Assembly: GCF_000785105.2 (NCBI RefSeq)
Contig: NZ_CP018906.1
Coordinates: forward strand, 434,001-498,000
DNA: 64,000 nt
Direction of reading: 5' to 3'
Origin: Lentilactobacillus curieae
GTDB taxonomy: Bacteria; Bacillota; Bacilli; Lactobacillales; Lactobacillaceae
Positions within the stretch are counted from its first letter, which is position 1. Each line of letters opens with the position of its first letter. The notes under the pieces were generated by a model that worked only from the letters and a program-made list of their open reading frames with translations, did no database searches and was not told where the DNA came from. The translations under genes and the position numbers were made by a program. This document shows positions 1 through 63,210 of the stretch, piece by piece.

Positions 1-59
1 ATATTCCTGGTACACATAATTCAACAATAAATTATTTAATAATTCATTGTCGTTTTGTT

Positions 60-126
60 CGCATCTCCCCCTCATAAAAGATATTAGTCGCAGAAGAGAA
101 GGTTCCCCCAACCTTTTCTTTTTTTT
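60..126 (+). ncRNA. candidate short C-rich RNA ending in a terminator
   Basis: This stretch has no gene. It contains an unpaired CTCCCCCTC tract at 65-73. A 10-bp stem follows (95-104 with 110-119, one G:U pair) whose loop is exactly five C. A run of T (119-126) follows directly, so the hairpin reads as a rho-independent terminator on the plus strand. The gene upstream, if any, lies outside the window, so this could be the 3' end of a longer transcript. I see no convincing -35/-10 pair before it. Confidence 0.3.
95..126 (+). terminator. rho-independent terminator
   Basis: A 10-bp stem with a CCCCC loop is followed by eight T residues. It ends whatever transcript enters from the left edge or the candidate RNA at 60-126. 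Confidence 0.7.
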
Positions 127-215
127 ATACCAAAAATTGATCCATAAATCTCCATGTTCACAAAAAAATCACACTTTCGTCGTTTTTTTTTAACAGTTTG
201 TGTGTATATTAAGAA

Positions 216-368
216 CCATAGAGAAGAGGGTTACTTAAAAGCCTCTCTTCCTACCCCCCAATATCGTAATAAATTAATCCCCCATTAATTTGTTACTTTT
301 CATATTCATATTCCCCTCAGAATATAGACATATTTAGAGATAAGACATCCCCCTGTCTTATCTTTTTT
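216..368 (+). ncRNA. candidate C-rich-loop regulatory RNA
   Basis: Four hairpins follow one another in DNA without a convincing gene: 221-229/242-250 (imperfect), 271-278/284-291 (8 bp, perfect, loop CCCCC), 308-313/320-325 (6 bp, loop CCCTCA) and 338-346/355-363 (9 bp, loop ATCCCCCT, then T-run). A six-C tract at 254-259 lies unpaired between the first two. C-rich loops that bind Shine-Dalgarno sequences are a known feature of several Gram-positive small RNAs (RNAIII and the Rsa RNAs of Staphylococcus). That this is one is inference. Alternatively it is the leader or tail of an unknown transcript. Confidence 0.35.
338..368 (+). terminator. rho-independent terminator before rgg
   Basis: A 9-bp perfect stem (338-346 with 355-363) has the loop ATCCCCCT and is followed by T at 363-369. 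It insulates the rgg promoter from upstream transcription and would form the 3' end of the candidate RNA. Confidence 0.75.
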
Positions 369-386
369 TGTGCCTTCGTTTAAAGC

Positions 387-430
387 AATATTCGAATAAG
401 CTAAATGATTTTCGAATATTCTGATATAAT
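387..430 (+). promoter_or_regulatory. rgg promoter with inverted repeat
   Basis: TATAAT at 425-430 is preceded by TG one base away (422-423), an extended -10 box. A 10-bp inverted repeat, AATATTCGAA at 387-396 and TTCGAATATT at 411-420 (14 bp apart), covers the -35 region. It is a plausible operator for the adjacent Rgg regulator. Confidence 0.5.
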
Positions 431-471
431 AATTTTGAAAACAAAAACTTTATTATTGGAATGATAGACAG

Positions 472-1314
472 ATGAACACTGAACTATTTATAAAAACTAG
501 AAAAAAGCTTGGTTACTCTCAAGAAGAACTATCCAAGGGTATCTGTACCCAAGCTACCCTAAGTAAGTTCGAAAAGTCAGGGAAAGCTCCCTCCATCAAA
601 ATTTTGATTAGACTATGTGAACGCCTCGGTTTGACTTTAGACGATATCTTCCCAATCACATCAAAATCAGAAACTGACGCAATCAAAAAGCTAGATCATG
701 CGGAGTTCCAATTGATTACCAGCGAGTTTGACACAGCAAAAAAGGAACTCGCATCAATTAAGAAGGACGATTTACAAGATAAAGCTTTAATGCAGTACTA
801 CTTCATTAAGGGATTTGTATCTGCACTTGAAGACGCCCCATTATCTGATACCTTGTTTTACTTTGACCAAATTTTAAACGGTCTTGATGATGATCACCAA
901 ACAGTATTCTCTTTACTGGCGTTTACCGGTGTAGGGACTGCTTACTTTAGGAACGGTGAAATCGACAAAAGTGAATTCTACTTTCAAAAGGTATTCGACT
1001 CACTTTACTCACTACCACTTGACGATGAACGGGCAGTTTGGCGGGCTCTTAGCATGATTTTCTACACAGCTGATTACTATGCTCACGCTAAGGAATACGA
1101 CACCAGCAATTCATTGTTAGAGTATGCTTATGGTATCTGTGCAAAGAGTCACGTCACCTACTACGTTGCTAGAATTCAGTTTAGGCGGGCGCAAAATATT
1201 CGTGAGGCTGGTCAAGATGATAAACGAATCGGTGAATATCTAAATGATGCCGCTGCGTTTGCGAGAATTAATAATAACCAAAAGTTGTTAAAGAGAATTG
1301 AAGATTTTGTTTAA
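472..1314 (+). CDS. Rgg/GadR/MutR-family transcriptional regulator
   Basis: This cytoplasmic DNA-binding regulator has 280 residues, the usual Rgg length. An XRE-type helix-turn-helix covers about residues 5-62 (GYSQEELSKGICTQATLSKFEKS region), followed by an all-helical, TPR-like domain to the C-terminus. Rgg proteins often sense short hydrophobic peptides encoded next door. I found no convincing peptide gene on either side, so the ligand is unknown. The gene stands alone, has its own extended -10 promoter and an inverted repeat upstream, and ends at a bidirectional terminator shared with the convergent MMPL gene. Confidence 0.85.
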   Translation: MNTELFIKTRKKLGYSQEELSKGICTQATLSKFEKSGKAPSIKILIRLCERLGLTLDDIFPITSKSETDAIKKLDHAEFQLITSEFDTAKKELASIKKDDLQDKALMQYYFIKGFVSALEDAPLSDTLFYFDQILNGLDDDHQTVFSLLAFTGVGTAYFRNGEIDKSEFYFQKVFDSLYSLPLDDERAVWRALSMIFYTADYYAHAKEYDTSNSLLEYAYGICAKSHVTYYVARIQFRRAQNIREAGQDDKRIGEYLNDAAAFARINNNQKLLKRIEDFV

Positions 1315-1374
1315 CTTATAGTTTATAGATGACAGTTATCTTTTCACTCACATAATAATTAAGTCCTCACAATT

Positions 1375-1413
1375 AAAATCCCCCCGCTAGAAATCTAGCG
1401 AGGGGATTTTTTA
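1375..1413. terminator. bidirectional terminator between rgg and MMPL gene
   Basis: A stem of AAAATCCCC-type and CGCTAG arms with loop AAAT is flanked by A-run and T-run. It serves the two convergent genes. Confidence 0.85.
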
Positions 1414-1434
1414 TACATAGACTTTATTGGTAAC

Positions 1435-3780
1435 TTAGTTCTTAAACTTATTGTGAGTGGCACCTGGGAAATACCAGTTTATCTTACCTAACAAATTGAT
1501 CATTGCTGGGACAAAGATAAGTCGAACGAAGAATGCATCGAACAGAACTCCTCCAGCCAATGAAATTCCAATTGACTTAACAGTTGGATCAGATGAAAGT
1601 GCGAAACTTCCAAACACCGCAATCATGATCAATGCAGCCGTCACGATAACTGGGCCACTTTCAGCAAGACCTGTCTTAACTGCGTACTTGGTATCACCAG
1701 TTAACAGGTATGTTTCCCTGATTCGCGAAACCATGAACACTTCATAGTCCATCGCTAATCCAAACAGCACCCCAATCATAACAACTGGTAAGAAGGCAAG
1801 GATTGGCGCACCAACGCTAATTCCAAAGAAGCTCTTCATCACACCATCTTGCATAACCAAAGTTGTAAATCCGAATGAGGCAAACACGGACAATCCAAAT
1901 CCGACCATAGCAAACAGCGGAATGACAAATGAGCGGAACATAATCATCAAGAGAACGAACGCAATGACCATTACGATTGCTGTAAACATCGGAATGGCGT
2001 TATTTAATTTCTTAGAAATATCAATATTAACCGCATTTGATCCAGTTAATATGATTTTAGTGTTATCGCTCTTTTGGAGCTTTTTGGAATATGAGTTAAT
2101 TTTTTGAGCTAATTTTTCAGTTTTAGCAGATTCAGGTCCGTTTTCCGGCATTAAGATAAACCGGGCGTACTTATGATCTTTACTAATTTTAACTGGGATA
2201 CTAGAAATCGCTGCTTTCTTTGTTCTCTCAGTGACTAACTTTTTAAACTGAAGTGTGTACTTTTGTGCAAGTATCTTCTGTTGTTTAGGAGTCATGGCTG
2301 GATTCTTCATCATTTCAGCCATAACTTTCTTTTGAACAAACTTTTTGCCTTCAACTTTTAGTTTTTGTTGAAATTGTGGTGATTTTGCTGCCTTGACGGC
2401 TTTCTCATTAACAACGGGCATGAGCTGGTCAACGTTATCATAGTTTTCAACTTTACTAGTAACCTTTTTAAGAATTTGCTTGTTTTCCTTTAAAGAATTA
2501 CTACTATCAAGCTTAACAACGCCAATCATTGTTGAATTTGCACCGGCGCCAAACTTGTCCGAAATTGTGTCGTATGCTTGTCGCCGCGTGTTATCCGTTG
2601 GTAAGGAACCGTCAAAAGGCATTCCCAATCGCATGTGACTAGATGGAACCATAAATCCAATCAACACTGCCAAACTTAGAATTACCATAACAAATGGATG
2701 GTTTGCGACTGTTTTGGTAACTACCCCAGTTTTTTTAACTGCCTGTTCAGTGTTCACTGAAGCTGGTTTGATAAACTTACTAAACAATGAAATTAACGCT
2801 GGAAGCAATGTCATTGCAGAGAGAACTGCAAACAAAACTCCAACGGCAGATGCAATCCCCATTTGGGTCAAGAAATCGATTCGAATAAAGACTAGTCCAA
2901 CGAGGGCAACCATAACGGTAATTCCAGCAAATAGAACTGAACTACCCGCGCTGCCTAACGTCGCACCCATGGCATTATCCGGTTCCGTCGTGTCTGAGTT
3001 AGCTAGCTCTGACTTGTACCTGTGAATTATAAACAGGGCATAATCAATTCCAACGGCTAGGGTAATCATAACCGCAAGGGTTTGGGCAACAGAAACGATT
3101 GAAAAGAAATTGGTTCCAATCATGATTGTCATTAAACCGGTAACTAGTCCAATGATGGCACTAATAATTGGTAGACCAGCTGTGATAAATGATTTAAATA
3201 ATACGAGCATTAAGATAAAGGCAATGGCAATTCCGATGATTTCGGAAAGACCACCAATATCAGGCATACTCAGGACGTTTCCTGAGAAGGAGACTTTTGT
3301 GTTACTGTCTTTAACTTTATTACGGAATTTCTTTTGAATTCCGCTAATCGCCTTATCGGAAACCAAGTTAGAATCTTTTTTGAAAGTAATATTAACCATC
3401 CCAGTGGTTTTATCGGAACTAATTGATTGTGATTCGTAGGGACTGGTGATTGACTTGATTTGGCTACCATATTTGCTCTTTAAAGCCTTAACAGTAGCGT
3501 TAATTTCTTTCTTTTGATTTCTGTTATTTATACTCTTATCGTTCGTGTTTTCAACGACAACAGTCATTGAACCCGCATCAACCGACTGATCAAACTGTTT
3601 TTCTAATACTTTTTGAATATCAGTTGATGGGATTCCAGAAATCTTCAAATTTTCATTAAAATGAGATCCAAGCATCCCAACGGCGGAAACAAAGGCTACC
3701 AACATGACAAGCCAAGCAGTTAATGCTTTAAACTTATTGTTATAGACCCACTTTCCAAAACTTGTTAATCCACTTTGCAT
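1435..3780 (-). CDS. MMPL/RND-family membrane transporter (YdfJ-like)
   Basis: This 781-residue protein has the duplicated RND layout: an N-terminal membrane helix, a large extracellular domain, a helix bundle, then the same again. The conserved membrane motifs GIDYALF (about residue 245) and GLAMDYEVF (about 675) are present in the two halves. MMPL proteins export lipids, drugs or other hydrophobic compounds using the proton gradient; the substrate here is not known. The start at 3780 has GGGAG seven bases upstream. The gene is divergent from a TetR-type gene that probably controls it. Confidence 0.85.
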   Translation of the reverse strand: MQSGLTSFGKWVYNNKFKALTAWLVMLVAFVSAVGMLGSHFNENLKISGIPSTDIQKVLEKQFDQSVDAGSMTVVVENTNDKSINNRNQKKEINATVKALKSKYGSQIKSITSPYESQSISSDKTTGMVNITFKKDSNLVSDKAISGIQKKFRNKVKDSNTKVSFSGNVLSMPDIGGLSEIIGIAIAFILMLVLFKSFITAGLPIISAIIGLVTGLMTIMIGTNFFSIVSVAQTLAVMITLAVGIDYALFIIHRYKSELANSDTTEPDNAMGATLGSAGSSVLFAGITVMVALVGLVFIRIDFLTQMGIASAVGVLFAVLSAMTLLPALISLFSKFIKPASVNTEQAVKKTGVVTKTVANHPFVMVILSLAVLIGFMVPSSHMRLGMPFDGSLPTDNTRRQAYDTISDKFGAGANSTMIGVVKLDSSNSLKENKQILKKVTSKVENYDNVDQLMPVVNEKAVKAAKSPQFQQKLKVEGKKFVQKKVMAEMMKNPAMTPKQQKILAQKYTLQFKKLVTERTKKAAISSIPVKISKDHKYARFILMPENGPESAKTEKLAQKINSYSKKLQKSDNTKIILTGSNAVNIDISKKLNNAIPMFTAIVMVIAFVLLMIMFRSFVIPLFAMVGFGLSVFASFGFTTLVMQDGVMKSFFGISVGAPILAFLPVVMIGVLFGLAMDYEVFMVSRIRETYLLTGDTKYAVKTGLAESGPVIVTAALIMIAVFGSFALSSDPTVKSIGISLAGGVLFDAFFVRLIFVPAMINLLGKINWYFPGATHNKFKN

Positions 3781-3866: not shown

Positions 3867-3895
3867 ACAAAATGTGCAAATTGGGGGAAATGTTT

Positions 3896-4402
3896 ATGAC
3901 TGATATGAGAAGAGAGCGAACTGATATTGTTATTTTTGATACATTTGCTGATCTATTGAAGAAAAAACGGTTCTCAGAGATTACTATGATTGAAATTTCC
4001 CGGGAGTCCTTTGTCCATCGCAACACAATCTACAAGCATTTTCTTGATAAGTACGACTTGCTAGGGAAGTTTATGGACAGAGAAATAAGTAATCATGAAG
4101 ATTTTTTATCAGAATTCGAAAACCGCCCCTTTAAAGCTGTTGCAGGTTTATTTGATTCAAACTTACAACCGATTATTGAAAAGCAACAGTTTGACACCGA
4201 GTTCACTCGATTGGTTGAAGAAAGTGGTGCCAGAGTTCTTTACAATAAAATTAAGGATCCTAATCTACTTTGGAATCTAGGGAATATATATAGCGTTATT
4301 ATGTGGAATCAGTTACATGGAAACAAGCTAGATATTATTGATGACTTTGAAGAATTAGATAGGATTTACCAGACGAAGAAGTTCCCAAAAACTGATGATT
4401 AA
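3896..4402 (+). CDS. TetR/AcrR-type transcriptional regulator
   Basis: This 168-residue regulator has an N-terminal helix-turn-helix (about residues 20-50, with ISRESFVHRNTIYKHFLDK typical of the TetR recognition helix) and a helical ligand-binding half. I start it at 3896 because GGGGG at 3883-3887 is then eight bases upstream; the longer frame from 3827 would overlap its own promoter. It is divergent from the MMPL transporter and is therefore its likely repressor, by the common TetR-transporter arrangement. Confidence 0.8.
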   Translation: MTDMRRERTDIVIFDTFADLLKKKRFSEITMIEISRESFVHRNTIYKHFLDKYDLLGKFMDREISNHEDFLSEFENRPFKAVAGLFDSNLQPIIEKQQFDTEFTRLVEESGARVLYNKIKDPNLLWNLGNIYSVIMWNQLHGNKLDIIDDFEELDRIYQTKKFPKTDD

Positions 4403-8840: not shown

Positions 8841-9812
8841 ATGGAAGTATTTGACTACGAAGACATTCAACTTGTTCCCGCAAAATGTATCATTAAGAGC
8901 CGTAAAGACGCCGACACTTCTGTAAAGTTTGGCCCTAAGACCTTTAAAGTTCCAGTTGTTCCTGCAAACATGGAAACTGTAATGAATAAAGAATTAGCAA
9001 TCTGGATGGCACAAAATGATTACTTCTACATCATGCACCGTTTCCAACCAGAAACTAGAACTGATTTTGTTAAGGAATTACACTCACTTGGCCTATACGC
9101 TTCAATTAGTGTTGGTATCAAGGACAGTGAATATGACTTCATCGACGAATTAGTTAAGGAAGATGCTAAGCCAGAATACATCACCATTGACGTTGCCCAT
9201 GGTCACTCAGACTTTGTTATTAACATGATCCACTACATCAAGGAAAAATTACCAGAAACATTCTTGATTGCTGGTAACCTTGGAACTCCAGAAGCAGTTC
9301 GTGAAATCGAAAATGCTGGTGCCGACGCAACTAAAATTGGGATTGGACCAGGTAAGGCCTGCATCACTAAGCTAAAAACTGGTTTTGGTACTGGTGGTTG
9401 GCAATTAGCTGCCCTTCGTCTTTGCTCAAAGGCTGCTAAAAAGCCAATGATTGCTGACGGTGGAATTCGGTTTAATGGTGATATCGCTAAGTCAGTCCGT
9501 TTTGGTGCTTCAATGGTTATGATTGGTTCTCTCTTGGCCGGTCATGAAGAAACTCCTGGTAACCTAATCAGTATTGACGGCAAGAAATATAAGCAATACT
9601 GGGGTTCAGCTTCTGAACGTCAAAAGGGTGCTTATCGTAATGTTGAGGGTCGCCAAATGCTGGTACCATACCGTGGCCACTTGGAAGACACTTTAATCGA
9701 AATGCAAGAAGATCTCCAATCATCAATTTCTTACGCAGGTGGTAAGGAATTATCAGATATTAGAACCGTTGACTACGTAGTAGTTAAGAATTCAATTATG
9801 AACGGCGACTAA
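8841..9812 (+). CDS. guaC: GMP reductase
   Basis: GuaC converts GMP to IMP with NADPH, feeding guanine nucleotides back to the IMP pool used by PurA. The 323 residues form a TIM barrel of the IMPDH/GMPR family: the loop [11 protein letters not shown] with the catalytic cysteine (about residue 176), then [14 protein letters not shown] and the phosphate-binding end. No CBS domains are present, which separates it from IMP dehydrogenase. GGAGG lies nine bases before the start. Linkage to purA supports the role. Confidence 0.93.
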
Positions 9813-9814
9813 AA

Positions 9815-9858
9815 AATAAGGATTCAGGTTGGCAACGCCAATCTGAATCCTTATTTTT
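9815..9858. terminator. bidirectional terminator between guaC and YhgE gene
   Basis: A long stem (AATAAGGATTCAG arm with its complement) around GGCAACGCC, with A-run and T-run ends, separates convergent genes. Confidence 0.9.
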
Positions 9859-12006
9859 TTATAGCTGAGACTTTTCAAATCCTTCTTCCAGCGCATGAAT
9901 CGGTTTTCTAAATAACCGTCGGGAAATTGGAGTGAGGATCACAAAGAACAATCCAAATCCAGCTAAGATTAATAGATCATTGAAGAAAATTCCCCAGTCT
10001 GGGCCAGAGATGGCTTCTCTGAACGCACTAATTGCATAGGTAAATGGTAAGTATGGTGTCAAACTTGTTAGCCCTCGTGGAATAACCTCTAGTGGATACA
10101 AACCACCAGTACCAAAAATCTGCAGGATCATCAGCAAGACACCAACGACTTTACCAACATTTCCAAACGAAAATACCAAACTAAAGATGATCATTGTAAA
10201 TACTAGCGCCGTAAAGAAATCTATGAGGATAAACGCCAGCAAGCTATGCGGTCGAATCCCTAGGAAACCAATCTCCCCGATAAAAGTAAATAGTGTTTGG
10301 GTGAACGCAATCGTCAGGTAAAGCAAGAACTTTCCGCCATATGTCTGGTAGTAGCGAATCTTATTTTCCCTCATTGTGCTTCCCACCGCATACTTCCAGG
10401 AGATGATAGTGGTTAATAACAACACCCCAATCCAAATTGATAACACTGTATAAAATGGAGTTGCTCCATAACCAAAGACCCCCATATTATAAAGTTCTTT
10501 ACTCTTCAACTTGATTGGTGAGGCCAAAATGCTAGCAATATCAGGGTCTTTACCTAGGAGATTAATTAACTTATCTAAATTGCGACTATTCAGGAAGCTA
10601 AGCTGATCATCTAAGTCACTTAACTGTGACTTAATGTTATCTAGTTTCTCCTGGACTGACTTCACCCGATTAACGGACAGACCGCTAATCGAATTTCCTG
10701 CACTTTGCATTGCTTTTAATTCAGGAATTACCTCTCTGAGTGAGCTAATCAAGTCGGAATTATTAGAAGAGTCAGATGCAGTCGTGTCCCCAAGTGAATC
10801 TAGCCGGTTCTCGGTGGAGTTAGCGGTTGTTGCCGCCGAGCCTAACTCATCTTGAATTTTGTCATTCAGGTTGTTGATTTTGTTAGTAAACCTCGTCGTG
10901 TTCTTACCGCTACCCGTTTGTAACTCATTTAGGTATCGCTGCTGTTGCTTAATTTGCTTTTTAGCATTCGTAAAACTAACGACTAGATTATTGATTCGGT
11001 TGCTAGGAATAATTGACCCCACAATATCGAAAACGCGAATCCCATCGTTCAGTCCTGCCACCAAAGCATTTCCTGCCCTACTGGCAACTTTTGCTTGTCT
11101 AGCCAATGTCTGTCCCGAATTGGTTTCCGGATCAATTCCACTAATAGCTGATTGCAAGGAATCCGATTGGTTTTGAATTGAATCCATTGCGTTGCTGACA
11201 CTGTTCTTAGTTGCATCCAAGTTGTTCTTAGTAGTGCTAATTAAATTTTGTTGCTGACTTAAAATATTGCTCAAATCAGTAATCTGTGCAGAAACCTTGG
11301 GAATCCCATTTTTAACTGTTTTAAGATATTTTTGAACGTCTTTTGAATTTCGGTTAACCCGATTTAAATGCTGATCCGCCCTTTTGATTTCACCAATCGA
11401 ATCATTCAAAGAATTACGAATCCCCAATATTTCGGGGCGGTGTAAATCGAGGTCGGCACCAACTTGATTAAGTTTTTTCAATACTAACGATCCACTTAAC
11501 TGAGTGAAATTACTCCGGATTTGCTCAGTAAGTGTGTCCTTAGCCTGACCGGTAATTTTGGTAGCTGCAGGATTCAACTTTTCGTTAGACTTATATACAA
11601 CGGTTGGTTTTTGCGGGTTATCACTGGCAAGCGAAGCTAGGCGACTAGAAAAATCACTAGGAATTTCAATCATTGCGTAGTACTTTCCCTGATCAAGACC
11701 GTTATTACCATCCCAATCATTAGTAATCATCCACTTAACGTCATGGTTCTTCTTCAGCTTAGAAATAACTTCTTTGCCGACATTGATATTTTTACCATTT
11801 AACGTACTGCCCTCATCATCGTTAACCACAGCAATCGGCAACCGTCTGATGTTTTGGGTAGAATACGGATCCCACGATGCTTTTATGTTTAACACTGCAT
11901 ATGAAGCAGGCACTAAACAAAAAGCCAGAATTGTGATTAAAACTGGCTTGCTGTGGATGATTTTAGACATATCTCTTTTAAACAGTTTAAAAATAGTATT
12001 TTTCAT
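9859..12006 (-). CDS. YhgE/Pip-domain membrane protein
   Basis: This 715-residue protein has one N-terminal membrane helix, a long extracellular region with heptad-like, Asn/Ser-rich helices (about residues 190-500), and five or six C-terminal membrane helices of ABC-2 type. The N-terminal block with ASWDPYSTQNIRRLPIAVVN is the family signature. Relatives include the lactococcal phage infection protein Pip and the YueB/EsaA proteins of type VII secretion; the exact task here is unknown. It starts 17 bp after the secreted protein upstream and is paralogous to the divergent gene at 12859-15018. Confidence 0.85.
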   Translation of the reverse strand: MKNTIFKLFKRDMSKIIHSKPVLITILAFCLVPASYAVLNIKASWDPYSTQNIRRLPIAVVNDDEGSTLNGKNINVGKEVISKLKKNHDVKWMITNDWDGNNGLDQGKYYAMIEIPSDFSSRLASLASDNPQKPTVVYKSNEKLNPAATKITGQAKDTLTEQIRSNFTQLSGSLVLKKLNQVGADLDLHRPEILGIRNSLNDSIGEIKRADQHLNRVNRNSKDVQKYLKTVKNGIPKVSAQITDLSNILSQQQNLISTTKNNLDATKNSVSNAMDSIQNQSDSLQSAISGIDPETNSGQTLARQAKVASRAGNALVAGLNDGIRVFDIVGSIIPSNRINNLVVSFTNAKKQIKQQQRYLNELQTGSGKNTTRFTNKINNLNDKIQDELGSAATTANSTENRLDSLGDTTASDSSNNSDLISSLREVIPELKAMQSAGNSISGLSVNRVKSVQEKLDNIKSQLSDLDDQLSFLNSRNLDKLINLLGKDPDIASILASPIKLKSKELYNMGVFGYGATPFYTVLSIWIGVLLLTTIISWKYAVGSTMRENKIRYYQTYGGKFLLYLTIAFTQTLFTFIGEIGFLGIRPHSLLAFILIDFFTALVFTMIIFSLVFSFGNVGKVVGVLLMILQIFGTGGLYPLEVIPRGLTSLTPYLPFTYAISAFREAISGPDWGIFFNDLLILAGFGLFFVILTPISRRLFRKPIHALEEGFEKSQL

Positions 12007-58633: not shown

Positions 58634-59875
58634 TTATTTAGTTAAATCTTCACGAACGATTGGGCAACTCATGCAACGTGGACCCCCACGACCTCTAGAT
58701 AATTCACTTGAAATAACTTCAAGTACTTTAAGGCCATGTTGTCTCAATAACTCGTTTGAAACATAGTTACGGTTGTAGGTTACAACAACGCCTGGTGCAA
58801 TTGCCAAAGTGTTTGAGCCATCGTTCCATTGTTCACGACCAGCGATGATTGGATCACCGTTACCAGTTGGGATTAGGTCAAGATCATCTAAGTGAAGTGC
58901 ATCCTTCAAGGTTTCCTTGAGGTCTGTCTTGTGTTGGATATGAATCTCGCCTTCGCCTTGGCCAGGAGTAAGGGTGTAAGTGTCGATATGGCCACCTTCA
59001 CCTAAGATCCCTGGATGAACTGTAAATTGATCGTAGTTGATCATAGTGAACACAGTGTCTAAGTGCATCATTGCATGGTTATGAGGAATACTGATTGCGA
59101 TAACAGTGTCGTAGTTACTGTCTTTAAACAGGTTACGAGCGATATCTTCAATCGCATCAGCTGAAGTTCTTTGTGAAACCCCAATTGCCATAACGTGGTC
59201 GTTTAAGACTAATTCGTCCCCACCCTCGATACGAGTGCTGTGGTTACGATCACGCCATACGTGAACACCTTGGTTAGCAAACCGTGGATGATGTTCAATA
59301 ATGATTTGGTTAAACAATGATTCTCGTTGACGAGCAGCGAAAGTCATATGATTAATACTCAAACCTTCCCCTATACATGCTGAAGGATCACGAGTGAAGT
59401 AGAGGTTAGGCATTGGATCCATGTAGAATTCATAGTCCCCGTCTTCGGCCATGCTTTGTAAATCAGTTGGCACAAAGTCTATTTCATTCTTGCGAATACC
59501 TTCCATGATCTTGTTGACCATGTCTTGGTTATTCATGCTAGCAAGATATTCTTTCAAAGCATCATGGGTTGCCCCAGTTGCGTATCCAGATTCTGTTAAC
59601 ATCTGTTCCAAAAACTTGTCTTTTAATTCGGCCCCGCCAGCATCTAATGCTTCTGCAGCGAGCTTTTCAAGGTAAAGAACTTCTACTCCGTTATCACGAA
59701 GTGTGTTTGCAAAGTAGTCATGTTCTTCCTGTGCCTTAGGTAAATATGGTATGTCATCGAACAAAAGTCTTGGCATCATATCAGGGGTGAAGTTTTCAAT
59801 TTCATGTCCTGGTCGTTTAAGCAAAACTGTCTTTAACTTACCGATTTCCGAAAAGTTGTGAATTGGACTTGTCAT
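58634..59875 (-). CDS. arcA: arginine deiminase
   Basis: 413 residues. The catalytic cysteine lies in [12 protein letters not shown] near the C-terminus, with the Asp/His residues in [13 protein letters not shown] and HLDTVFTMI. It converts arginine to citrulline and ammonia, giving acid resistance. GGAGG lies before the ATG. First gene of the operon; its upstream region carries a catabolite-response element and ARG boxes. Confidence 0.96.
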
Positions 59876-60912: not shown

Positions 60913-63210
60913 CTAATATTTAATCACTTGATTAGGGCTCTCCCTAGTTAGTTCGCACTCTGCTCCAGCAATTATCATCGTTGTCCCCGTACCGCTTAAC
61001 AGGCTAACTCGGACCTCGTGCTCATAGATTGCAAATATATACTCGCTATTATAGAGAAAGATTCTAAACTTCACACTATTCCACTGTGAAGGTAATTTAG
61101 GGTACATCGAGAACGTTTCTGCATTATTAACCACCCCAGCAAATCCATAAAAGATTCCTTCCCATGCAGCTCCCAAACTTCCCGCATGAATTCCATTTGA
61201 AGTATTGTGATGAGAGTTTTGAATATCAGTCTCAATTGCTTGTGCAAAGAAGCTATACGCTTGTTTCTCTTTGCCAATCCTAGCCGCTGCAATCGCAAAG
61301 ATGGCCTTTGATAGACTCGAGTCATGGGTCGTGATTGGCTCATAAAAATCAAAGTCTCGGGTTAATTCCTCATCACTGTATCCCTTTGGAAATAGGATAT
61401 CAGCCAATATGGTATCAGCTTGCTTATTAACCTGGCTCCGATACAACATTAGCGGATGATAGTGTAGTAGTAGTGGAAAATCACTAGTATCGATATGACT
61501 GAGGTTAATTTTGTTCATCTTATCAAAGTTTTGATACTGTAATTTGACGTTATTTTCCTTATCAAATGGTAAGTACATTAAATCGGCAGCTTCTTTGATC
61601 TCTGCCAATTCCTGTTTGGATAAGCTAAGCCGTTTTGATAGGTCAGTATTTTCAAACCGTTTTGCATACTTCTCAACCATTCTCAAATTAAACTTAACCA
61701 TCTTGTTTGTATAGTAATTATTATCAACAATCGCGCTATACTCATCAGGACCAGTTACCCGATTGATAACAAACCGACGTTCGCCATCAATTTCGGTAAA
61801 TTTTCCCCATTCCATGTAAAAGCGGGCCGTTTCAACAATGATTTCATAACCATAGTCAGCTAAAAAGTCATCATCACCAGTGACTTCATAATACTGTTCG
61901 ATTGCATATGCAATGTCCGCATTAATATGAATCTGAGCCGTTCCGGCTGGCCAATAGGCACTAGCTTCATAACCATTGATTGTTCGCCAAGCATACATAG
62001 CACCACGATTAAATCCAAATTGAGTGGCTTGCCGTTGCGCTTGCTTAAGAGTTTGGTAACGATACATCAGAATTTTTTTAGCAAGTTCTGGGTTCGTGTA
62101 AATAAAGAACGGTAACATAAAAATTTCAGTATCCCAGAAGTAATGACCACCATAACCACTTCCAGACAGCCCCTTTGCCGGAATACTTGTGTGCGCATTA
62201 CGTCCAGCCGACTGATGCAGCTCAAATAAGTTAAACCGCAAACTTAACTGAACTTGTGGATCACCATCAATCTCCACATCACTGTGAAGCCAAAACGTTT
62301 GCCATACTTGAGCAGATGCCATTAGTTCTGCTTTAAAACTAGTATGCCGAATATGTTCATTTAGTTTTGCAAGGTATTGGTCCGCGTACATCTGGGCATT
62401 TACCAATGGATGAACATCACCAATGGAGAATAGAAATTCAAACTCTTTTTGTGAGCCCTTTTTGGCATGATACTTAGCATGGTAGCCCCAATGATTATTT
62501 TCGTCTTTGTAATACTCCAGCTTAAAGCCCTTACCATTATACGTAAGGATTGCCCCCTGCTGGCTCTTATACGTAGTAATCAAGTAGCTGGGTTGGTCAT
62601 ATCCTTCAAGAAAATCAAGCTGCAGGTGTCCTTCTGATTCATTAACCCGGACATCTGAAACAGTCGAACTAGTAGCCTGATTGATGTAACTATGCATTTT
62701 GATGACTTCAATATCATCATCAAAGTTAACCGGCACAACCCCATATTTAATTCCATAAACATTGTCAGACGCAAGACTGCTAAAGCTCTCAACAACTAGG
62801 TTAAATATTTTGCCCTCGGGAGTTGTTACGCTAAATATTTCGTGGAGTAACCCCGTTTGCATGTCCAGGTTCTTATCAACAGTTTCTGACTTGAAGAAGT
62901 CTACGGAAGAATTCTCATCCCCAACTTTAATTCTGATGTACCGCGGATCAAATAATCGGTTGATTACCTGATCATTCTCAGGATATCCAGTATATTTTTC
63001 CCCATACTCAATTGGGTAATAGTCGTAAAATCCGTTAACAAATAGCCCTGGTGTCCCCACATAGTTCGGATTGTTTCCTTGAAGCGGGTTAGAGTCTCTG
63101 ACCCCAATGTGTCCATTTGCCACATTAAATATAGTTTCTAGATATAATTGATCTTTTGACTTGAGATTTTGTAAATGGATTTGAAAATCTGGCCGTTGTT
63201 CAATTCGCAT
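60913..63210 (-). CDS. mapA: GH65 disaccharide phosphorylase, probably maltose phosphorylase
   Basis: 765 residues, the usual length. The catalytic acid Glu is in VTGPDEYSAIVDNNYYTN (about residue 487), the substrate region is GLSGSGYGGHYFWDTE, and the phosphate-binding block is HNTSNGIHAGSLGAAWEG. Maltose phosphorylase splits maltose with phosphate to beta-glucose 1-phosphate and glucose. Trehalose, kojibiose and nigerose phosphorylases share the fold, so substrate is inferred from lactobacillus usage. No beta-phosphoglucomutase (pgmB) or transporter gene is adjacent. Confidence 0.85.
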   Translation of the reverse strand: MRIEQRPDFQIHLQNLKSKDQLYLETIFNVANGHIGVRDSNPLQGNNPNYVGTPGLFVNGFYDYYPIEYGEKYTGYPENDQVINRLFDPRYIRIKVGDENSSVDFFKSETVDKNLDMQTGLLHEIFSVTTPEGKIFNLVVESFSSLASDNVYGIKYGVVPVNFDDDIEVIKMHSYINQATSSTVSDVRVNESEGHLQLDFLEGYDQPSYLITTYKSQQGAILTYNGKGFKLEYYKDENNHWGYHAKYHAKKGSQKEFEFLFSIGDVHPLVNAQMYADQYLAKLNEHIRHTSFKAELMASAQVWQTFWLHSDVEIDGDPQVQLSLRFNLFELHQSAGRNAHTSIPAKGLSGSGYGGHYFWDTEIFMLPFFIYTNPELAKKILMYRYQTLKQAQRQATQFGFNRGAMYAWRTINGYEASAYWPAGTAQIHINADIAYAIEQYYEVTGDDDFLADYGYEIIVETARFYMEWGKFTEIDGERRFVINRVTGPDEYSAIVDNNYYTNKMVKFNLRMVEKYAKRFENTDLSKRLSLSKQELAEIKEAADLMYLPFDKENNVKLQYQNFDKMNKINLSHIDTSDFPLLLHYHPLMLYRSQVNKQADTILADILFPKGYSDEELTRDFDFYEPITTHDSSLSKAIFAIAAARIGKEKQAYSFFAQAIETDIQNSHHNTSNGIHAGSLGAAWEGIFYGFAGVVNNAETFSMYPKLPSQWNSVKFRIFLYNSEYIFAIYEHEVRVSLLSGTGTTMIIAGAECELTRESPNQVIKY

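Follow-up and report, generated by a model that had tools for sequence, protein, structure and literature searches.

The opening of the window (by which we mean the whole 64,000 nucleotides of Lentilactobacillus curieae DNA that were analysed) raises the question whether a short stretch rich in C tracts, positions 60 to 368, encodes regulatory RNAs and, if so, of which kind. A preliminary description had proposed one or two unannotated RNAs here, whose C-rich loops would block Shine-Dalgarno (SD) sequences. All six C tracts that it listed are at their places (67-71, 105-109, 254-259, 279-283, 313-316 and 349-353), and the four assigned to hairpin loops do lie inside loops, each closed by an uninterrupted stem in a fold check that allows G-T pairs:

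92-122, plus strand: stem of 13 pairs
266-296, plus strand: stem of 13 pairs
308-325, plus strand: stem of 6 pairs
336-365, plus strand: stem of 12 pairs

The T runs said to terminate two of the hairpins, both on the plus strand, are also present. When 60-368 was shuffled 2000 times with dinucleotides preserved, 1.9% of the shuffles reached six or more C tracts, so the count alone is only mildly unusual; four loop-borne tracts were reached by none of the 2000 (shuffled mean 0.16, maximum 2). G tracts of at least four were not found in 60-368. Two further clusters of four to five plus-strand C tracts per 309 bases occur elsewhere in the window, in stretches starting at 59141-59361 and 62701-62911.

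As we read the sequence, 60-368 is most of two of three predicted tandem, paralogous small RNA genes, which we call A, B and C. The stretch first delimited is real but cuts the feature short, in that it begins within RNA B, and RNA A precedes the window; an own-genome search finds an 86% identical copy of 268-377 immediately upstream of the window. The features are as follows, those outside the window being given in coordinates of locus L031:

L031 about 9778-9917, upstream of the window: RNA A, read from sequence
L031:9923-9939: TTCACA box of RNA B, with its -10 at about 9971-9981
L031 about 9988-10126, of which window 1-126 is the part inside the window, plus strand: RNA B, predicted to start ~12 bases before the window; its match to covariance model R1 (see below) is a weaker one of 36.5 bits
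67-71, plus strand: a C5 tract in RNA B that stays free in the centroid fold
92-126, plus strand: hairpin that terminates RNA B; its loop carries C5 (105-109), and a T run follows
157-173, plus strand: putative response-regulator box ahead of RNA C, a direct repeat TTCACA-N5-(A)TCACA with 1 mismatch
205-210, plus strand: TATATT, the -10 hexamer of RNA C, at 48 bp from where the box starts
218-369, plus strand: RNA C, start predicted from the -10 and end from the terminator
219-253, plus strand: 5' hairpin of RNA C (fold)
254-259, plus strand: unpaired C6 tract of RNA C (fold)
266-296, plus strand: hairpin 1 of RNA C, with C5 loop 279-283 (fold, covariation)
308-325, plus strand: hairpin 2 of RNA C, with a C4 tract (313-316); no element of the family is more conserved (fold, covariation)
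336-369, plus strand: hairpin that terminates RNA C; its loop carries C5 (349-353), and a T run follows (fold, covariation)

The suggestion of one RNA with several seeds agrees with RNA C, which has four C tracts, while RNA B has two, one C5 and the C5 loop of its terminator; each has a terminator and a regulated-type promoter. RNA A is without the free C6 of RNA C. Compared with shuffles, A and C fold far better (z of -8.5 and -7.9) and B moderately better (z of -3.2).

These genes are not peculiar to one genome. A DNA search matched the array in 22 of the 24 genus genomes, own included, and the exact 18-mer of hairpin 2 was found in 22 stretches, 17 of them from named Lentilactobacillus and one from a Lactobacillaceae MAG (UBA5807), the remaining four being single matches in unrelated organisms that we take as chance. 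The 18-mer is present in one viral contig (L111), perhaps by chance as well. For the covariance search that had been proposed as a check, model R1 was built from 38 segments (alignment A1 took 38 of 42). It matches all 24 Lentilactobacillus genomes, weakly in G018 and G019, and scores RNA C (263-369) at 109.6 bits, a sequence that belongs to the model's own alignment. Over 25 loci it gives 56 matches; 46 are A/C units, and the other 10 are B-like and weaker (24.7-37 bits). Outside the genus, matches occur in 3 of 373 other Lactobacillaceae genomes: the one in G090 looks genuine, judging by a near box and three C tracts, that in G057 has a C-tract terminator with no box in sight and that in G368 looks like chance.

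Compensatory stem changes with kept C tracts, part of the support that the preliminary description had asked for, are plentiful. Changes on both sides occur in 24 of 26 pairs, and 96.5% of cells pair, among 54 distinct rows (B-like included) in an alignment fitted to the model; an unfitted alignment retains two-sided changes in 12 of 26 pairs. None of 500 shuffles attains any of the five measures used as a covariation control, and pairing falls to 36-51% once partners are slid by 1-3 columns. The terminator stem differs between species while its loop retains the C tract. Loops lost from conserved flanks had been named as the pattern that would speak against such RNAs, and what we see is mostly the opposite: three core tracts of C4 or longer are present in 40 of the 46 A/C units and two in the other six, which are one unit each in G013 and G020 (hairpin 1 concerned), both in G015 (hairpin 2) and those of G018 and G019 (terminator loop). 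The surroundings are similar, too: of 22 genomes tested, 20 have in their array locus an alpha/beta-hydrolase gene resembling the one next to the own array (the G011 array locus showed none, and the G014 locus stops at a contig end). Beyond it, where the locus extends, comes a YitT-like gene and then, in several 8 kb loci, glpK. To our minds, A, B, C and their relatives are almost certainly real small RNA genes.

Upstream of them, a direct repeat, TTCACA-N5-TTCACA, recurs. Of the 46 A/C units, 26 have it upstream without a mismatch, 37 with at most one and 44 with at most two, against letter-shuffle means of 0, 0.07 and 0.97; we chose letter shuffles over a reversed-motif control because the latter is not independent of the box. 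A -10 hexamer (at most one mismatch) sits exactly 48 bp from the repeat start (at most three mismatches) in 43 of the 46 units, and none of the other distances from 40 to 57 bp exceeds 9 units. The box of own unit B has no mismatch; TACTAT stands at 48 and TATAGT at 53. The exact box occurs 103 times in the 24 genomes (22 of which have it) compared with 11 occurrences of its reversal. We regard the RNA genes and their promoter as well supported.

What such RNAs might do is a further question, and our likely answer is a stress-switched, LhrC-like multicopy sRNA family that is controlled by a response regulator and blocks SD sites. Transcription, regulator, envelope signal, SD pairing and targets of the array RNAs are what we infer from sequence in this model. 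An OmpR-class response regulator would bind the TTCACA repeats that lie directly ahead of the core promoter and activate it, each RNA being made from its own promoter and the trigger probably being cell-envelope stress. Each product would be an RNA of about 140-155 nt with an intrinsic terminator and two to four C4-C6 tracts, in loops or unpaired, that may pair with G-rich SD stretches and so block translation of several mRNAs; having several RNA copies would raise the dose.

Suitable SD sites do exist in the own genome, since GGGGG followed by ATG at 4-11 bases outnumbers its reversal about threefold (192 versus 59), and the first 30 listed GGGGG sites fall to 21 distinct frames, several of them membrane- or secreted-looking. 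In the window itself, a TetR-like gene (by eye) at 3883-4402 has GGGGG ahead of its ATG; a close orthologue of it (86%) occurs only in G021 among the other genus genomes. For a more specific target search we used the complement of hairpin 2, the most conserved element of the A units, with G-U pairs allowed. Among the 24 genomes it has 25 sites in 21, of which 24 are exact antisense of the RNA and one, in G011, differs by one base. This non-antisense site falls exactly on the SD and start codon of a gene for a LacY-type oligosaccharide transporter of 443 aa; 20 of its 22 bases are complementary to hairpin 2, one of the remaining two forms a G-U pair, and the predicted duplex has -34.8 kcal/mol, whereas 500 shuffled targets average -19.4 and go no lower than -30.9. 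A second species with such a target site was not found among the 24 genomes. Moreover, the search pattern itself resembles an SD plus start codon and, by rough reckoning, ~14 matches are expected in random sequence, so that the G011 site counts by its position rather than by its existence. The transporter mRNA is hence a candidate target only, being one gene in one species found with an SD-like pattern.

An unlikely, though in our opinion the most serious, alternative accepts the same RNAs and promoter and sees their C tracts bind a partner other than an SD, be it a protein, a titrated RNA or another RNA for which they act as sponge. That our searches gave no conserved target, and that the TetR-like gene with its GGGGG SD is closely conserved in just one other genus genome, would fit such a partner. 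It is opposed by the excess of GGGGG-then-ATG over its reversal, by the fall of the sole non-antisense complement on an SD and start codon and by precedent, for the UCCC tracts of LhrC bind the G-rich SD region of lapB, as mutation and compensation have shown (PMC4132741, in part). A UCCC-type seed that blocks SD sites is reported as well for RsaE, FsrA and other Gram-positive C-rich sRNAs (PMC4132741, in part), which the array RNAs resemble in having a putative C-rich seed, their sequences having been compared through Rfam scans alone.

Returning to SD blocking under a response regulator, the neighbours of the box suggest which signal may be involved. In the subset of box sites outside arrays that we opened, the box lies upstream of an operon with Transgly_assoc, AmaP and Asp23 genes (model-named, L186), genes resembling this operon lie downstream of it at four other loci (L142, L148, L153, L157), and it precedes secreted surface protein genes at three (L156, L161, L166). 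It also adjoins genes for a GH25 protein and a metalloprotease, which point away from it, and further sites are in less telling places. From these neighbours we infer that the box may mark a cell-envelope regulon. None of the seven Trans_reg_C regulators found has a box (at most two mismatches) in the 600 bp upstream, so the box cannot yet be assigned to any of them; judged by kind only, the first candidate would be a two-component system whose sensor has an ArlS_N domain (L184). Control of the same RNAs by PhoP, and thus by phosphate starvation, was considered because in Bacillus the PhoP box is a similarly spaced repeat of TT(A/C/T)ACA. However, a 16 kb locus that reads as phoPR-pst-phoU (translations, by eye) is without the box at up to one mismatch, and those box neighbours that we could identify are envelope genes. 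We therefore reject PhoP control, for the box is absent from the pho-pst locus, and regard it as very improbable.

As to kinship, Rfam 15 gave no match over gathering score in window 1-3000, in L031:6000-11500 or in the units of 11 related loci; the best matches that overlap window units, csRNA and ncr1241, are both far below cut-off. LhrC (RF00616) is alike in being tandem and multicopy, with several C-rich (UCCC) sites in loops or linker and own promoters, and LhrC1-5 of Listeria monocytogenes are under control of a two-component system and cell-envelope stress (PMC4132741, in part). A further mark of that family is dependence of its transcription on LisR. Tandem copies with several C-rich sites are what we find here, with three units in the own array and the three core tracts counted above. 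Unlike LhrC, A/C units consist of a 5' hairpin plus three C-tract hairpins. Of 395 Lactobacillales genomes, 34 match the LhrC model, every one of them in family f8 (genera g47 and g69); the model has no match in Lactobacillaceae, none in the own genome and none in window 1-3000 at E up to 5, and exact TTCACA-N5-TTCACA is absent from all 20 LhrC loci examined. With no model match, membership in LhrC is rejected.

The Streptococcus csRNAs are redundant short RNAs under a response regulator that recognises a direct repeat with N5 spacing (PMC8186281, in part), and several short RNAs next to a response-regulator-type repeat of the same spacing are what the array offers, albeit with a regulator that we deduce. 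A divergent member of that family under CiaR is nonetheless scarcely tenable. While csRNA RF02379 aligns to 92-190 (32.2 bits, E 0.12), its gathering score is 57, and the match is not one unit as it spans the RNA B terminator and reaches into the RNA C promoter; the csRNA/CiaR repeat, moreover, is TTTAAG-N5-TTTAAG (PMC8186281, in part) rather than TTCACA-N5-TTCACA. Below cut-off, out of register and with another box, csRNA membership was rejected. We file the array as a new family within a known kind, that of two-component-controlled multicopy C-loop sRNAs.

Just as hard to credit is that 60-368 acts as leader and controls the helix-turn-helix regulator encoded at 472-1314, whose gene begins about 100 bases past the last terminator, given that this gene is beside the array only here among 41 loci tested (hence our rejection) and that the array is found in 24 of 24 genomes with its last unit closed by a terminator. 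In G021, though, DNA about 3 kb past the array does match part of window 418-500. Further downstream, RsaJ at 1329-1451 (both strands) was below cut-off and dismissed; its best-aligned part is a two-way terminator between 472-1314 and 1435-3780.

If the promoter is what defines these RNAs, it may lead to others. Of 397 Lactobacillaceae genomes, 40 matched a pattern of repeat and -10 at the fixed distance, with no C tract asked for; 17 belong to the genus and the other 23 do not, and there was no reversed match among those listed. We inspected all 23 outside matches. In 18 (16 of genus g4, two of genus g9) a short RNA gene comes next, which differs from the array RNAs but is similarly built, having an inverted repeat at its 5' end as well as C tracts and a terminator. 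In four (genus g15, L267-L270) the promoter is upstream of a lipoprotein-like gene of about 340 aa, and the last (genus g22) has neither C-tract RNA nor lipoprotein gene. All 16 g4 RNAs have C5-C7, then TATAACATAT, then TTTAATCCC, and their terminator loops contain C4; each of the two g9 RNAs has two C tracts, neither of them in that loop. Read singly, the 18 show nine distinct terminator stems and keep the C4 loop in 16. A MAFFT alignment of 15 of the 16 g4 RNAs contains no two-sided change at six predicted pairs, the terminators being out of register. The 5' bases of one g4 RNA, ATTACTTGTAGATGAGA, resemble those of the G018 unit, ATTACTTGTAGATAAGA, which suggests descent from a common ancestor; own unit C is much less alike there. 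In an Rfam scan of eight of the 18 outside loci, nothing at E up to 0.05 matched the RNAs.

One promoter type would then drive RNAs so unlike that the covariance model of one did not find the other. On balance we favour an undescribed sRNA class in several genera of Lactobacillaceae, in which one response-regulator promoter grammar (TTCACA-N5-TTCACA, -10 at 48 bp) would be shared and C tracts kept while the remainder is rewritten, and which would form the repressive arm of an envelope-stress regulon, equivalent to LhrC and csRNAs. If this likeness is true, three lineages couple a sensing two-component system with redundant C-loop RNAs. A genus-wide array with a defined box opens a way into a stress regulon in bacteria of food and silage, and searching by promoter first is a route to sRNAs that drift too fast for homology search. 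The literature we found on small RNAs of these bacteria is sparse, and among titles and abstract openings no report of such RNAs in Lactobacillaceae was found; one study (PMC5643018) reportedly concerns a long RNA of Lactobacillus salivarius.

As a minor observation, three C4-C5 tracts in inverted repeats with a terminator-like end were seen at L272:480-740 (G004:C82), and the same stretch is present in L273 (G014:C200). A phage collection contained no DNA similar to it; by eye, it sits between phage-tail-like and holin-like genes, and is perhaps a prophage-borne RNA of similar style.
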